The notes under the pieces are model-generated. The model was not told where the DNA came from. It was given only the letters and a program-made list of their open reading frames with translations, and did not search any database. The position numbers were made by a program, and so were the translations under genes. From positions 1-60,319 of the forward strand of contig QEVJ01000014.1 in NCBI GenBank assembly GCA_003576845.1: a stretch of DNA of 60,319 nucleotides, written 5' to 3'. This stretch comes from Planctomycetota bacterium. Its GTDB lineage: Bacteria > Planctomycetota > Planctomycetia > Pirellulales > PLA5. This document shows, piece after piece, positions 44,290-50,351 of this stretch; within the stretch, counting starts at the first letter, position 1; the number at the start of each line of letters is the position of its first letter.

Positions 44290-44538
44290 TTATCGGCGCG
44301 GCTTCAAAAGCGCCCTTAGGTTGCCCCTGTATTCCTTTACGCGCCCCGCAATCGCATCGGCATAGCCCGCCACGATCGCGTCTCGGAGCATTTTGGCTTC
44401 GTATTACGCCATGCGTTGGCGCAACAGATCGTGTACGAACTCGCCGGAACTCGTGTATCGCGTCCCGTCGCCGCAGTTCTTGTCGACGAACGCGCGGAGT
44501 TCGTCGGTAAGCGCAACCGTAATCGAGTGCGGCGCCAA
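44290..44538 (-). pseudogene. ParD/RHH-type antitoxin gene with premature stop
   Basis: The minus-strand frame starting at TTG 44538 reads LAPHSITVALTDELRAFVDK, then CGDGTRYTSSGEFVHDLLRQRMA, matching the ribbon-helix-helix ParD-type antitoxins. A TAA at 44404-44406 interrupts it. The same frame continues after the stop with YEAKMLRDAIVAGYADAIAG, then RVKEYRGNLRALLKPRR, the usual ParD C-terminal toxin-binding helix, to a stop at 44290. One base change would restore the gene. No ATG is visible and no ParE-type toxin is adjacent, so it is a decaying orphan antitoxin. Confidence 0.7.
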
Positions 44539-44560
44539 GTTAGCTCACCCCGCGAAGAAC

Positions 44561-45878: not shown

Positions 45879-47699
45879 ATGCCGCCGCTTGCCCTCGACC
45901 TCGCCGGCGTGACCAGTTGGAGTCTCGGCGCGCCCCCGCCCATCGCCGTATGCACTTGGGGCGACGTTACGCCGATTGCGTTCACCGTTGCGTTCGACGA
46001 TTCGCCGACTCTTTCGCTCGCAGTCGACGTACTCACGCCGTGCGCCCTCGATCCGCTCGCGTCGCTGGCCCCGCGCCCCGCCGTCGTTTCGGTCTCCGCC
46101 CGCTGCCAGTCGCCGCGTACGAAGAGCTACGTCTTCGCCCCGCCCGCCGAAGGCGCGCCGCCGAGCTTCGACGACGCTCCGCAGGGCGCCGTCCGAATTG
46201 CCGCTGCCAACGGCGCGGCCAACGCCGCCGCGAACCGCCGCTCGACTCGCATCCGCCCGCCCGACGACGTCGTCAAGCTCCAAGACCGCCTCCAATACCT
46301 CTTGCAGCCGTCGCTCGAAACGCTTCTCGCCGACAACGCGCTCGCGTTTCCGTTCCAACCGTTCTCCTATCAACTCGATGGCGTCGCCTTCCTGTTTCCG
46401 CGCTACAGCGCCGTCCTCGCCGACGAAATGGGACTCGGCAAGACGATGCAGGCGATCACCGCCGTCCGCCTTCTCGTGCGCACCGCCGCTCTCCGCCGCG
46501 TCCTGCTCGTCTGCCCCAAACCGCTCGTCACCAACTGGGTTCGCGAGTTCGCCCTTTGGGCCCCGGAAATTCCGCTCGCGGTGATTGAAGGCGACCAGAC
46601 CAAACGCCGCTGGCAATGGCACGAAGTCGACGCGCCCGTCAAGATCGCCAATTACGAACTCCTCGTCCGCGATCGCGAGTTCGTCGAACAACCCGGCGTC
46701 CACTTCGACCTCGTCGTGCTCGATGAAGCCCAGCGGATCAAGAACCGCAGCGGCACGACGAGCCAGACGGTCCGCGCCGTCTCCCGCACCCGCAATTGGG
46801 CCCTCACCGGTACGCCCGTCGAGAACAGCCCCGAAGACCTCGTCGGCATCTTCGAGTTCCTCTCCCCCGGCTATCTCTCGCGGCACATGAAACCCCGCGC
46901 GATGGGCCGCGCCGTCGCTGACCACATCCTCCGCCGCACCAAGCAGCAAGTCCTCACCGAACTCCCGCCCAAGCTCATCCGCGACGCCGAACTCGAACTC
47001 ACCCCGCAACAACGCCACACCTACGACCTCGCCGAGAACGACGGCGTCCTCCACCTCGCGGACATGGGCGAAGCGGTCACGATTCAACACGTCTTCGAGC
47101 TCGTCCTCCGCCTAAAGCAAGTCTGCAATTTCGATCCCGCCACCGGCGCAAGCGCCAAGCTCGAACGCCTCTCGGCCGATCTCGAAGAAGTCGCCGCCAG
47201 CGGGCAGAAAGCCCTCATCTTCAGCCAGTGGGTGCAAACCCTCGACAAGCTCAAGGAGCATCTCGCCCCGTTCGGACCGCTCGAATATCACGGCGGCGTC
47301 CCTTCCGCCAGGCGCGACGACGTGCTCCAGCGTTTCAAGGAAGATCCGACCAAACACGTCCTGTTGATGAGTTACGGCGCCGGCGCGGTCGGTCTCAATC
47401 TCCAGTTCGCCGGCTACGTCTTCCTCTTCGACCGCTGGTGGAATCCGGCCGTGGAAGACCAGGCGATCAACCGCGCCCATCGCCTCGGCGCTGCCGGTCC
47501 CGTTACCGTCACCCGCTTCCTCACCCGCAGCACGATCGAAGAGCGCATCGACCAGGTGCTCCAAGAAAAACGCGAGCTCTTCGACACGATCCTCTCGGGC
47601 GCAGGCCCGGCCCGCCTCGGAATGTCGCAAGCAGAAATCTTCGGCCTCTTCAAGCTCGCCCGCCCGTCTCTCAATCCCCCCGTGCGCGACGCGGCATGA
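45879..47699 (+). CDS. SNF2-family DEAD/DEAH helicase
   Basis: This 606-residue protein has an N-terminal region of unknown type (1-150) followed by a Swi2/Snf2 ATPase. Motifs are Walker A ADEMGLGKTMQAITAVRLLV, motif II LDEAQRIKN, GTPVENSPEDLVGIFEFL, IFSQWVQTLDKLKEHL, GAGAVGLNLQFAGYVFLFDRWWNP and motif VI QAINRAHRLGAAGPVTVTRF. It is predicted to translocate on double-stranded DNA and remodel protein-DNA complexes. The neighbouring upstream gene is probably a partner. Its last 29 bp overlap the end of the convergent PEP-CTERM gene. Confidence 0.93.
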   Translation: MPPLALDLAGVTSWSLGAPPPIAVCTWGDVTPIAFTVAFDDSPTLSLAVDVLTPCALDPLASLAPRPAVVSVSARCQSPRTKSYVFAPPAEGAPPSFDDAPQGAVRIAAANGAANAAANRRSTRIRPPDDVVKLQDRLQYLLQPSLETLLADNALAFPFQPFSYQLDGVAFLFPRYSAVLADEMGLGKTMQAITAVRLLVRTAALRRVLLVCPKPLVTNWVREFALWAPEIPLAVIEGDQTKRRWQWHEVDAPVKIANYELLVRDREFVEQPGVHFDLVVLDEAQRIKNRSGTTSQTVRAVSRTRNWALTGTPVENSPEDLVGIFEFLSPGYLSRHMKPRAMGRAVADHILRRTKQQVLTELPPKLIRDAELELTPQQRHTYDLAENDGVLHLADMGEAVTIQHVFELVLRLKQVCNFDPATGASAKLERLSADLEEVAASGQKALIFSQWVQTLDKLKEHLAPFGPLEYHGGVPSARRDDVLQRFKEDPTKHVLLMSYGAGAVGLNLQFAGYVFLFDRWWNPAVEDQAINRAHRLGAAGPVTVTRFLTRSTIEERIDQVLQEKRELFDTILSGAGPARLGMSQAEIFGLFKLARPSLNPPVRDAA

Positions 47700-48636
47700 T
47701 ACTCGGCGTTTCGATCGGAAAGCCTCGCCGCTTCAACGGGCGGAATCGGACAAACGCCAACATCAGTCCCCCGAGGACGGCAAGCGAAATCGCCGCCGGC
47801 TCCGGAACCGCATACCGCCCGGCCGCCGCGTCGAGATCGTGCCCGCCGTTGCCGAACACGAGGTCCGTCGTCGGCCACGCCTCGAGAATCTCGCGCCCCA
47901 GCGAATCGAGCGACGAGCCGTCGCCTGGAATATCGACGAGCCGCACGTACTCGATCGCGTCCAACCGCACCAAGCCCGATGCCACGTCCGGATGCGTCGC
48001 CAGATCGGCGAAATCGAACGGCGTTCCGACCAGACCGCGGTGAACGCCGGCCAGGTTCCGCACGTCCGTCGGATCGATTCCCGCGAACGCCGGCCCGAAC
48101 GGCTCGAACAGCGTCGTGGTGAGCGACTCGGCCGGAAACCGCGCAAACGTCGCGCCGTCGCTCGATACTTCGACGAACGCGAGCTCGGCAAACACCTTGT
48201 CATCGTCCGGCGGAAAGAATGCAAACGCATTCTCGAACACGGCCAAATCCCAACCCGGTCCGTTCCGCAGCGGCGACGCCATGCGGAGCGTTATCTCACC
48301 TCGCGGCAAACCCTGGTTCAACTCCGCTTCGGTCAGGTCGCCCAGCGAAACCGTGCTCCCGTCGGGCAAGTCGCCGATCGGCCCGAGCGCTTTTGTCGGA
48401 TCGCCGTTTGCTGCGTTCACGCCCGGCGACGGCGAATAATCGACGACTTCCGCCGCCCACACCCGCAATTCCGGATTGATCACCGTCGCCGAAGGATTGC
48501 CCGGATCCACCACGCGCCCGGCAACGCCCGTCGCATCGAACGGACCAGCGCTCGCGAGTGCGGAACAAGCCGCCGCGCAGTAAATGCCCAAACCAGCGCG
48601 CACCGCAACATGTTTCCACAAAGATGGCGAATTCAT
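47671..48636 (-). CDS. PEP-CTERM protein, second gene of the B12-riboswitch cluster
   Basis: This 321-residue exported protein has a signal peptide (AGLGIYCAAACSALASAGPF) and a beta-rich body (GPGWDLAVFENAFAFFPPDD, LAFVEVSSDGATFARFPAES, LAGVHRGLVGTPFDFADLAT). It ends with a PEP-CTERM tail (AVPEPAAISLAVLGGLMLAF) and a basic end. The body resembles extracytoplasmic proteins that I recall beside DUF4465 genes and B12 transporters in other phyla; that is recollection, not proof. GAGGAG precedes ATG 48636. It lies 206 bp after the DUF4465 gene with no terminator seen, so it may share the riboswitch transcript. Confidence 0.88.
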   Translation of the reverse strand: MNSPSLWKHVAVRAGLGIYCAAACSALASAGPFDATGVAGRVVDPGNPSATVINPELRVWAAEVVDYSPSPGVNAANGDPTKALGPIGDLPDGSTVSLGDLTEAELNQGLPRGEITLRMASPLRNGPGWDLAVFENAFAFFPPDDDKVFAELAFVEVSSDGATFARFPAESLTTTLFEPFGPAFAGIDPTDVRNLAGVHRGLVGTPFDFADLATHPDVASGLVRLDAIEYVRLVDIPGDGSSLDSLGREILEAWPTTDLVFGNGGHDLDAAAGRYAVPEPAAISLAVLGGLMLAFVRFRPLKRRGFPIETPSIMPRRARGD

Positions 48637-48842
48637 ACGTCAGTTCTCCTCAAAGTAGGTGCAACTCGTTTCTCGAATATCGAACGGCCAAGCCAACGTC
48701 GCCCTCGCAGGCGCGCACCGCGAGCGCAAAGGATTTCCTCCGTGAGCGATCCAGCACAGATTTGCGCTGCCGCTTCCTAAATGTGCGGCAACGCTGCTTC
48801 TATCGCCGCGACGCAATGCAAATCGCGGGCTCGACAATCAAC

Positions 48843-49913
48843 CTACGGCCGCCGACGCCGCAACCGCGCCAACGCCGCCACCCCCACGAGCGCCAGCACG
48901 CAACTTGCCGGCTCAGGCACGGTCTCCGGTCCGCCGCCCCCGCCAGGCGTCGATGGATCGCCGCTCCCCGGCCCGCCGCTTGCGCCCAAATTCGCCCGCA
49001 CGAGCATCACGTCCGCCAGTGAAACCTTGCCGTCCTCGTTGTAGTCGCCCGACTGCCACGTCGCGCCGCTCGGCAAGCCGAGATTCGCCACGGTCAGCGC
49101 CAAGTCGGCGCCGTCGACCCGCCCGTCGCCATTCGCGTCGCCGGGAAGCCGCGTAACCGACGGCGCCACGAATTCCAGGTTGTCCATCGCGATGTATCCC
49201 GGCGTGTTCATCCCATACACGCCCATGTCGCTCGAATCGAGCGCGAACGTGAGATTCGTCACGCCGCGGCCGCGAAACGAATTCAAGTCCACGTGCAACC
49301 AGTCCGTCGCGATGTAATCGCCGCCCGGATTGGGCGAACGGTAATCCGCCAGATACACTTCGTGCGTCGCCACCGTGTTCCCGTCCGACGTGTTCCCGCG
49401 GATCGTCAACCGGAACCAGTCCGGATCATTCCCCGTCGGGCCGCCGAACTCTTTGGCGAACTGGTCGCCGCCGAGCATCGAGTGCACCGCATACGCCGTA
49501 TTCGCCACGTTCATGCTCCGCGGTTCCGTGCCCACCGGCAGGTAAATCTTCCCGTCGTGAAACTCGCTCGCCTGCCCCAATGCCGGCGAGTACGAACCGA
49601 GAAACGCCATCCCGTAGTTTGGCGAGCCGTTTACGCCCCCGCCCGTCACCGCACTGTACTGATTCCAATACCCGGGCGTCCAAATGTCCGTCAGATTCGA
49701 CGCGGCCCAACCCGCCGCCACGCGATACGTCGGGTTATAGAGGTTCGTAAACTGGGCCCCGCCCGAAGTAAATCCGCCCGACCCGTCCGATCCATTGAGA
49801 TACGTCCCGGGCGCGAGTGGCACGTCGTCGAAGGTTGCGAACTCGGCGCGAGCGCCCGCGGCAACAACCATAACACCAAACAAAGCGACGAATCCTACGG
49901 CATAGCGGCGCAT
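48843..49913 (-). CDS. DUF4465 PEP-CTERM protein with dockerin-like repeats
   Basis: This 356-residue exported protein starts at ATG 49913, decided by AGGA 7 nt upstream. Signal peptide (VGFVALFGVMVVAAGARAEF) then a DUF4465 domain: FDDVPLAPGTYLNGSDGSGG, IWTPGYWNQYSAVTGGGVNG, FGGPTGNDPDWFRLTIRGN, HEVYLADYRSPNPGGDYIAT, MGVYGMNTPGYIAMDNLEF. Two dockerin-type Ca-binding loops follow (PGDANGDGRVDGADL; GDYNEDGKVSLADV). The tail is Gly-rich plus PEP-CTERM (TVPEPASCVLALVGVAALAR). DUF4465 proteins of gut Bacteroidetes have, as I recall, been reported as B12-binding (BtuH), which fits the riboswitch upstream. Upstream in-frame codons lie in the riboswitch and are not protein. Confidence 0.93.
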   Translation of the reverse strand: MRRYAVGFVALFGVMVVAAGARAEFATFDDVPLAPGTYLNGSDGSGGFTSGGAQFTNLYNPTYRVAAGWAASNLTDIWTPGYWNQYSAVTGGGVNGSPNYGMAFLGSYSPALGQASEFHDGKIYLPVGTEPRSMNVANTAYAVHSMLGGDQFAKEFGGPTGNDPDWFRLTIRGNTSDGNTVATHEVYLADYRSPNPGGDYIATDWLHVDLNSFRGRGVTNLTFALDSSDMGVYGMNTPGYIAMDNLEFVAPSVTRLPGDANGDGRVDGADLALTVANLGLPSGATWQSGDYNEDGKVSLADVMLVRANLGASGGPGSGDPSTPGGGGGPETVPEPASCVLALVGVAALARLRRRRP

Positions 49914-50351
49914 ACGGCTTCCTTTCGGCGATAGCGGCCCAACTCGGGCCAAAGGCATCATCTCCACAGCAGCTCGCGCAGCACGGCTCTCGCGGACGAA
50001 GGCGAATCGTCGAGCGCAAAGCGCAAACGCAGCGTGAGCAACCCGTTTCCGTCCCTCGCGGAAAACTCCGGTCCAAAAAGCGTTGGTAGGTCTTCTGACT
50101 TCCGAGCGAAGCACGCCCAGCCTTCTCGCCGCCGCCAACCCTTCGGTCGACGCCGACAATGGCCAAACGAATCGAGCCGCTTCATCGCACTCGGTCACAG
50201 CGGCGGGGCCGTCCCGGTTTCACACCGGTGTTCCCTGTTTCGTCGGCCGTCCGCAAGCTGCAAACGACCGACCACCAACGCACGCTTGTCGGATACCATA
50301 TCACAGGCGAAACGAATTGCAATACCCTCTTTGACGTCGAAATAATGGGCC
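49914..50351. other. Divergent intergenic region containing the cobalamin riboswitch
   Basis: This gap of about 440 bp separates the DUF4465 gene from the first receiver gene. It is largely taken by the cobalamin riboswitch (50080-50281, minus strand) and its expression platform (49914-50079). The remaining 70 bp on the right would hold divergent promoters. Confidence 0.75.
50080..50281 (-). promoter_or_regulatory. Cobalamin (B12) riboswitch
   Basis: On the minus strand the aptamer shows the diagnostic GGGAACACCGGTGTGAAACC (50216-50235), followed by GGCCCCGCCGCTGTGACCG, and the closing AGTCAGAAGACCTACC (50085-50100). The outer helix P1 is formed by GCGTTGG (50275-50281) with CCAACGC (50080-50086). 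It precedes the DUF4465 gene by 166 nt, which contain further potential hairpins able to act as expression platform. It binds adenosyl- or other cobalamins and normally switches off B12 uptake or synthesis genes when B12 is plentiful. Confidence 0.95.

Follow-up and report, generated by a model that had tools for sequence, protein, structure and literature searches.

The best described relatives of the system reported here are B12-binding proteins of Bacteroides. BtuJ1 and BtuJ2 bind vitamin B12 (cobalamin) with an affinity that is nanomolar or better (PMC12751083). They belong to DUF4465, which is the BtuJ family, and B12 binding has been proven in eight distant members of it, among them a protein of the planctomycete Mucisphaera (PMC13398666); the function of the domain is therefore already established elsewhere. 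A second kind of binder is the BtuH domain, found in BtuH2 and in BtuGH. In BtuH2 (7BIZ), Asn399 contacts the phosphate of B12 and Phe401 its lower base (PMC8941943, section 8), and the domain was described in mBio as being without known structural homologues (within PMC8941943 and PMC10404256). Here, we describe a B12-related locus in a stretch of 60,319 nucleotides from a Planctomycetota bacterium of the order Pirellulales (contig QEVJ01000014.1, positions 1 to 60,319; hereafter the window), in which a cobalamin riboswitch precedes two genes on the minus strand. The system is a protein of the known BtuJ type, P0002, joined by a new BtuH-type partner, P0001, both probably PEP-CTERM sorted and both predicted to bind B12. 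Its new part is the BtuH-type partner, together with a pattern among relatives in which a pseudopilin gene stands where a TonB receptor gene might be expected, and this comparative result is more surprising than the window itself.

Riboswitch and DUF4465 protein

A covariance-model search places a cobalamin riboswitch aptamer (RF00174) at 50068..50294 on the minus strand, with 86.1 bits (E 7.4e-20) against a gathering threshold of 31.5 and with the model (1-189) covered in full. The window has no other Rfam match, and the assembly, 7.05 Mb in size and 99% complete, yielded no second copy of the riboswitch. Its B12 box, AGUCAGAAGACCUACCAAC (~50082-50100, minus strand), has the form ACCUACC, the common form being ACCUGCC. 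The leader from the aptamer to the first start codon (49914..50067, minus strand) is 154 nucleotides long and has a Shine-Dalgarno-like stretch, AAGGAAG, just 5' of the ATG. Because no terminator-like site was seen in the leader, where terminator and promoter scans were not above chance, regulation is probably at the translational level, via a hidden ribosome-binding site. The leader does not fold better than shuffled sequences.

Gene 1 (48843..49913, minus strand; ATG at 49913, stop at 48843) encodes P0002, a protein of 356 amino acids with a signal peptide, a DUF4465/BtuJ-type domain, a dockerin and a PEP-CTERM signal. The DUF4465 domain (PF14717; 49176..49718) scores 156 bits against a gathering threshold of 25 (E 1.7e-45); no other DUF4465 was found in the genome. 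The dockerin type I domain (48987..49145) scores 33.5 bits against a cut-off of 22.9, and the PEP-CTERM signal (48849..48923) reads VPEPAS, a hydrophobic stretch and RRRR. With BtuJ1 pocket residues taken from PMC12751083 and PMC13398666 as the reference, matching by motif places Tyr240 of the HI-loop NTPGY (residues 236-240) at the position of BtuJ1 Tyr245, and Tyr141 of the DE-helix NTAY at that of Tyr146. The best relative in the PDB is 9hmu, a B12 complex (E 7e-17). P0002 is thus predicted to be a further B12 binder of the known kind.

The initial annotation of this DNA had read much of this arrangement correctly. It had placed the riboswitch at 50080-50281, slightly shorter than the aptamer found here, and a DUF4465 protein 166 nucleotides downstream of it, a distance that counts from 50080 and is 154 nucleotides when taken from the aptamer. 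It had also taken DUF4465 proteins of Bacteroidetes to be B12-binding surface proteins, which the eight proven members bear out, and had rightly noted a second protein 206 bp further on in the same direction and the lack of an adjacent TonB transporter. The dockerin domain of gene 1 and the BtuH-like domain of P0001 go beyond it.

The BtuH-like partner

Gene 2 (47671..48636, minus strand) starts 206 bp past the stop of gene 1, with its own ribosome-binding site (GAGGAG). It encodes P0001, 321 amino acids with a signal peptide, a BtuH-like discoidin-fold domain (residues 51-275; 47812..48486) and a PEP-CTERM-like signal (47740..47811). Apart from this tail, P0001 has no Pfam match, and a sequence search of the PDB with P0001 alone gave no match; the link to BtuH therefore comes from a family profile and a structure model. 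Searched against the whole PDB, the profile, made from 73 relatives, matches only one chain, 8blw chain B (Bacteroides BtuGH), and does so inside the BtuH domain (E 9.8e-5). Alignment of the family with BtuH by hhalign gives E 2.8e-6 and a probability of 88%.

The AlphaFold model of P0001 (predicted local distance difference test, pLDDT, 88.9) has a discoidin-like fold. Its best structural match is again 8blw_B (Foldseek E 1.8e-4, Z 12.4, 21% identity over 179 residues, some of which fall outside the H domain of the chain). The next fold reaches a Z of at most 9.7, with CBM32 and other discoidin domains ranking below 8blw_B, and 7BIZ is absent among the Foldseek matches listed. The motif F134-E-N136-A-F138 (48223..48237, minus strand) appears to hold two of the B12 contacts of BtuH2. 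Asn136, aligned with Asn399, is invariant (73 of 73 family members), and Phe138, kept in 55 of the 73, lies two residues past it, as Phe401 lies two past Asn399. In these alignments chain index plus 100 equals the numbering of the paper, as checked via Gln333 at index 233. Because no BtuH family profile was to hand and no homologues were found in five Bacteroidota genomes, in a search without a positive control, the residues were mapped with HMMER alignments and with hhalign against single sequences. Homology and predicted fold together point to P0001 being a relative of the BtuH B12-binding domain.

Conservation of the locus

Two surveys covered the P0001 family (P1), one of 294 Planctomycetota genomes and one of named genomes, from which 80 loci were kept out of a larger number available. 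A first broad alignment of the family, A1, was too diverse for genome scanning. In the first survey homologues were found in 21 of the 294 genomes; the weakest of these matches (L023) was rejected as spurious, being a match to the PEP-CTERM signal only. RF00174 lies directly upstream of the P1 gene at 11 of 20 Planctomycetota loci. Among the named genomes, a custom covariance model finds a riboswitch ahead of P1, in the orientation of the gene, at 61 of the 80 loci; the model was trained on 25 such riboswitch RNAs, seven of them from the window or P1 loci of the first survey, which is a mild circularity. Many of the other 19 loci end at contig ends. The variant box ACCUACC recurs in G167, a relative within the window's order, where the aptamer reaches 102 bits.

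DUF4465 is nearby at 43 of the 80 loci, namely 17 of 25 in Planctomycetota, 9 of 20 of Verrucomicrobiota type, and 15 of 21 in Proteobacteria, Desulfobacterota and Myxococcota, among others. The two domains share one open frame, in either order, at about ten loci; at a few of these (for example L064, L107 and L126) a sorting signal lies between them, and what reads as one frame may be a pair of genes with no in-frame stop to part them. Both domains occur within planctomycete extracellular proteins of 2,000 residues in Rhodopirellula-type genomes. P1 is also riboswitch-linked without DUF4465 (for example at L009 and L014). The linkage of riboswitch, DUF4465 protein and second protein, which the initial annotation had seen in one genome, thus recurs over many phyla. 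Homologous operons include BtuB-type receptors, BtuF/C/D-like genes or cobalamin synthesis genes. A TonB receptor accompanies P1 at 20 of 21 proteobacterial-type and three of five Bacteroidota loci, in contrast to four of 20 Verrucomicrobiota-type loci and none of 25 in Planctomycetota.

Some members have unusual architectures. Four loci (L139, L145, L147, L150) encode giant extracellular proteins of up to 2,020 amino acids with BtuH-like and DUF4465 domains, behind a riboswitch and a pseudopilin gene; DUF4465 is present three times in L139. In the archaeon Methanosarcina spelaei (L092), a BtuH-like domain is part of a surface protein with PKD repeats.

Pseudopilins behind cobalamin riboswitches

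The lack of a linked TonB transporter is shared by planctomycetes in general and comes with a pseudopilin gene. At 20 of 25 Planctomycetota loci a prepilin-like gene in the same orientation lies no more than 5 kb away, and it usually adjoins or overlaps its neighbour; 14 of 20 Verrucomicrobiota-type loci have such a gene as well. Eight of ten such genes tested exceed the PF07963 cut-off. In G167 the order is riboswitch, DUF1559 pseudopilin, P1 and DUF4465. Another operon (G057) runs from riboswitch through DUF4465, P1 and pseudopilin to BtuF-, BtuD- and BtuC-like genes. At L079:9494-10540 (G137), two divergent cobalamin riboswitches point toward a DUF1559 pseudopilin and a DUF4465 gene.

A riboswitch-centred survey took 100 high-scoring Planctomycetota sites chosen independently of P1. 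A TonB receptor lies downstream at 33 sites, a pseudopilin at 14 and both at none. The pseudopilin is the first gene at 11 of the 100 (L189, L191, L194, L196, L202, L205, L215, L224, L235, L244, L250), in as many genomes, and ten of the 11 are the sites examined in a single family of the window's class, which was covered by ten genomes. In these operons the next gene often encodes a small CxxC lipoprotein, followed by BtuF-like or cobalamin-synthesis genes; in G257, BluB, CobQ and CobT follow the pseudopilin. Five loci (L191, L194, L196, L224, L235) have a lipoprotein with LYCPxCxxWxxxPPLExLxRxP between the pseudopilin and a BtuF-like gene. Other riboswitches in the survey precede, as judged by eye, apparent ordinary B12 targets, for instance ribonucleotide reductase, MetE and CbiM. 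Directly behind two cobalamin riboswitches (L203:644-1324 and L214:640-1347, in riboswitch orientation) lies an exported family with FWVGxGxNxA...WNDG...WGYRWDG, possibly another B12-binding surface protein; the pattern FWVG...WNDG...WGYRW recovered a single member.

Chance linkage of pseudopilin and riboswitch was considered and rejected, since prepilin-type genes number 24-98 per genome in ten members of the class, at most 1.4% of genes, against 11 of 100 lead sites (P 1.8e-7). In a tree whose background paralogues were drawn from few genomes, 37 of 47 B12-linked pseudopilins stand apart from the paralogues, with moderate support for the main split (91/84). A W[HFW]G signature is present in 34 of these 37 and in one of 23 background paralogues.

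From these observations one can conceive a route in which planctomycetes and their relatives replaced or supplemented BtuB by a B12-dedicated pseudopilin filament. BtuJ-type and BtuH-type proteins at the surface would capture B12, and a pseudopilin under riboswitch control would help to carry the vitamin or its carriers across the outer membrane to BtuFCD. We regard this idea as tentative, with a chance well below even. It is favoured by the frequency of prepilin genes and the scarcity of TonB receptors at P1 loci, by the G167 and G057 operons, and by the absence of sites that have both genes. Pili-like fibres that bind dextran have been seen in planctomycetes (PMC5394234), and a literature search found no paper linking pseudopilins to B12. 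On the other side, the pseudopilin could serve the export of surface proteins or some other task, and its predicted structure is poor (pLDDT 57.5); a Foldseek search with the model found nothing significant. No prepilin motif was found in the window, and its genome has six TonB plugs. If such a filament exists, the window might be its capture half without the filament gene, the partner of the surface pair being encoded elsewhere or lost; we hold this version to be possible and doubtful in the same measure as the filament itself.

Genomic setting of the window

No TonB receptor was found in the window flanks, and six TonB plug-domain proteins are encoded elsewhere in the genome, which also has one BtuF-type periplasmic binding protein and two exosortase genes (PF09721; 215 and 155 bits). 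An open reading frame of 1292 amino acids with a B12-binding domain is a probable methionine synthase (MetH). CobS had no match in the genome; dependence on external B12 is plausible, a single missing gene being weak evidence. Elsewhere in the window, a short frame on the minus strand (44402-44546), LAPHSITVALTDELRAFVDKNCGDGTRYTSSGEFVHDLLRQRMA, resembles a truncated ParD-type antitoxin.

Model and alternatives

The overall explanation that we consider quite probable is B12-controlled capture at the cell surface by a BtuJ-type and a BtuH-type protein. At low cellular B12 the riboswitch would leave gene 1 on, and gene 2 too if the two are co-transcribed; at high B12 it would shut off gene 1, and with it gene 2, probably by hiding the ribosome-binding site. 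Both products would be exported, trimmed at their PEP-CTERM tails by one of the two exosortases and then retained in the envelope, where the DUF4465 and BtuH-like domains would capture scarce B12. The vitamin would then be handed to an outer-membrane importer encoded elsewhere, either one of the six TonB receptors or an unrecognised system, and would serve enzymes that need it, among them the probable methionine synthase. The initial annotation had proposed a B12-controlled surface capture module, and this core of it is supported by the riboswitch score, the proven binding within the DUF4465 family and the recurrent linkage.

Several points weigh against this explanation. The 206-bp gap makes co-transcription uncertain, and no transporter is linked to the locus in the window genome. 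The Bacteroides relative BtuK2 shows that membership in a B12 locus does not imply B12 binding, and the discoidin fold serves to bind sugars and other ligands as well. In sequence, the match to BtuH is confined to the first third to half of the domain, counted from the N-terminus. Because Gln333 of BtuH2 is not conserved in the P0001 family, and equivalents of His476, Tyr510, Trp511 and Trp577 could not be aligned in P0001, B12 binding by P0001 is graded as likely and no higher. Finally, the Pfam scores of the PEP-CTERM tails, 20.4 for gene 1 and 16.2 for gene 2, are below the cut-off of 20.7. By eye, both tails look canonical (VPEPA, a hydrophobic stretch, RRRR or KRR), in line with their initial annotation, and the genome has two exosortases.

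The DUF4465 protein could instead be the sole B12 binder, with P0001 a discoidin or CBM32-like protein of the ordinary kind, at the surface or in the matrix, that merely shares the locus. The discoidin-like fold, the CBM32 and other discoidin domains that fill the list below 8blw, the partial BtuH match and the intergenic gap would all suit this. We judge it unlikely, as 8blw outscores the CBM32 rows (Z 12.4, theirs being 9.7 or less) and no other chain is matched by the sequence profile of the family. Besides, the family is riboswitch-linked even where DUF4465 is missing, shares a reading frame with it at about ten loci, and lies beside TonB receptors outside the Planctomycetes-Verrucomicrobia-Chlamydiae group. 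Less probable by far is that the riboswitch reads B12 as an environmental cue for adhesion or matrix proteins without a part in uptake; PEP-CTERM signals and dockerins are typical elements of matrix proteins, and the window has no linked transporter, but B12 binding is a proven trait of DUF4465 (PMC13398666) and homologous operons hold receptor, transport or cobalamin synthesis genes. That the riboswitch is a decayed remnant which no longer regulates, as its variant box and unremarkable leader folding might suggest, is hardly credible for an aptamer that has few broken pairs, reaches 86.1 bits across the complete model and shares its box with G167.

Implications

If surface capture is correct, a large family without a Pfam domain match in the members scanned gains a probable role in taking hold of B12 on the outside of the cell. 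The range of the BtuH domain is extended from Bacteroidota to planctomycetes, verrucomicrobia, proteobacteria, cyanobacteria and others. One subfamily of planctomycete pseudopilins gains a predicted cargo and a regulatory switch, and for the passage of large molecules over the planctomycete outer membrane, a B12-repressible pseudopilin would give a testable case with a small ligand that can be labelled.

Comparison with known systems

P0002 resembles BtuJ1, BtuJ2 and other DUF4465 binders (PMC12751083, PMC13398666) in its domain, in the HI-loop NTPxY and DE-helix NTxY, in its upstream cobalamin riboswitch and in being exported. It differs from BtuJ1 and BtuJ2 in its predicted anchor, a dockerin plus PEP-CTERM instead of a lipid, and in having no linked BtuB, BtuG or BtuFCD. 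We take IPR013424 to be the PEP-CTERM entry. It is carried by 88 of the 824 DUF4465 members, about 11% of the family (PMC12751083, section 8). PEP-CTERM display in place of a lipid anchor, which the initial annotation had put forward as a different route, is therefore right as a sorting signal and already reported.

P0001 shares its fold class and a significant profile match with the BtuH domain of BtuH2 and BtuGH (PMC8941943, PMC10404256). The segments VVDYSPSPG and SLG...IRNG.G.DF..FEN align, and equivalents of Asn399 and Phe401 are present. In contrast to BtuH2 and BtuGH, P0001 occurs far outside Bacteroidota, has no PKD domains and is predicted to be PEP-CTERM anchored. All 19 phylum-survey members match the NCBIfam family NF033170 (LIC_13355 family lipoprotein; best E 4.5e-18), which is named without a function, whereas P0001 reaches only 14.3 of its cut-off of 120.

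The operon gene of the relatives belongs to the broad paralogous group of planctomycete DUF1559 / H-X9-DG pseudopilins (PF07596, PF07963), within which the copies from B12 operons mostly branch off on their own and carry a WHG/WFG signature. A Bacteroides-type Btu uptake locus has a linked BtuB-type TonB receptor, and the window locus, with its BtuJ-type and BtuH-type genes behind one cobalamin riboswitch, does not.

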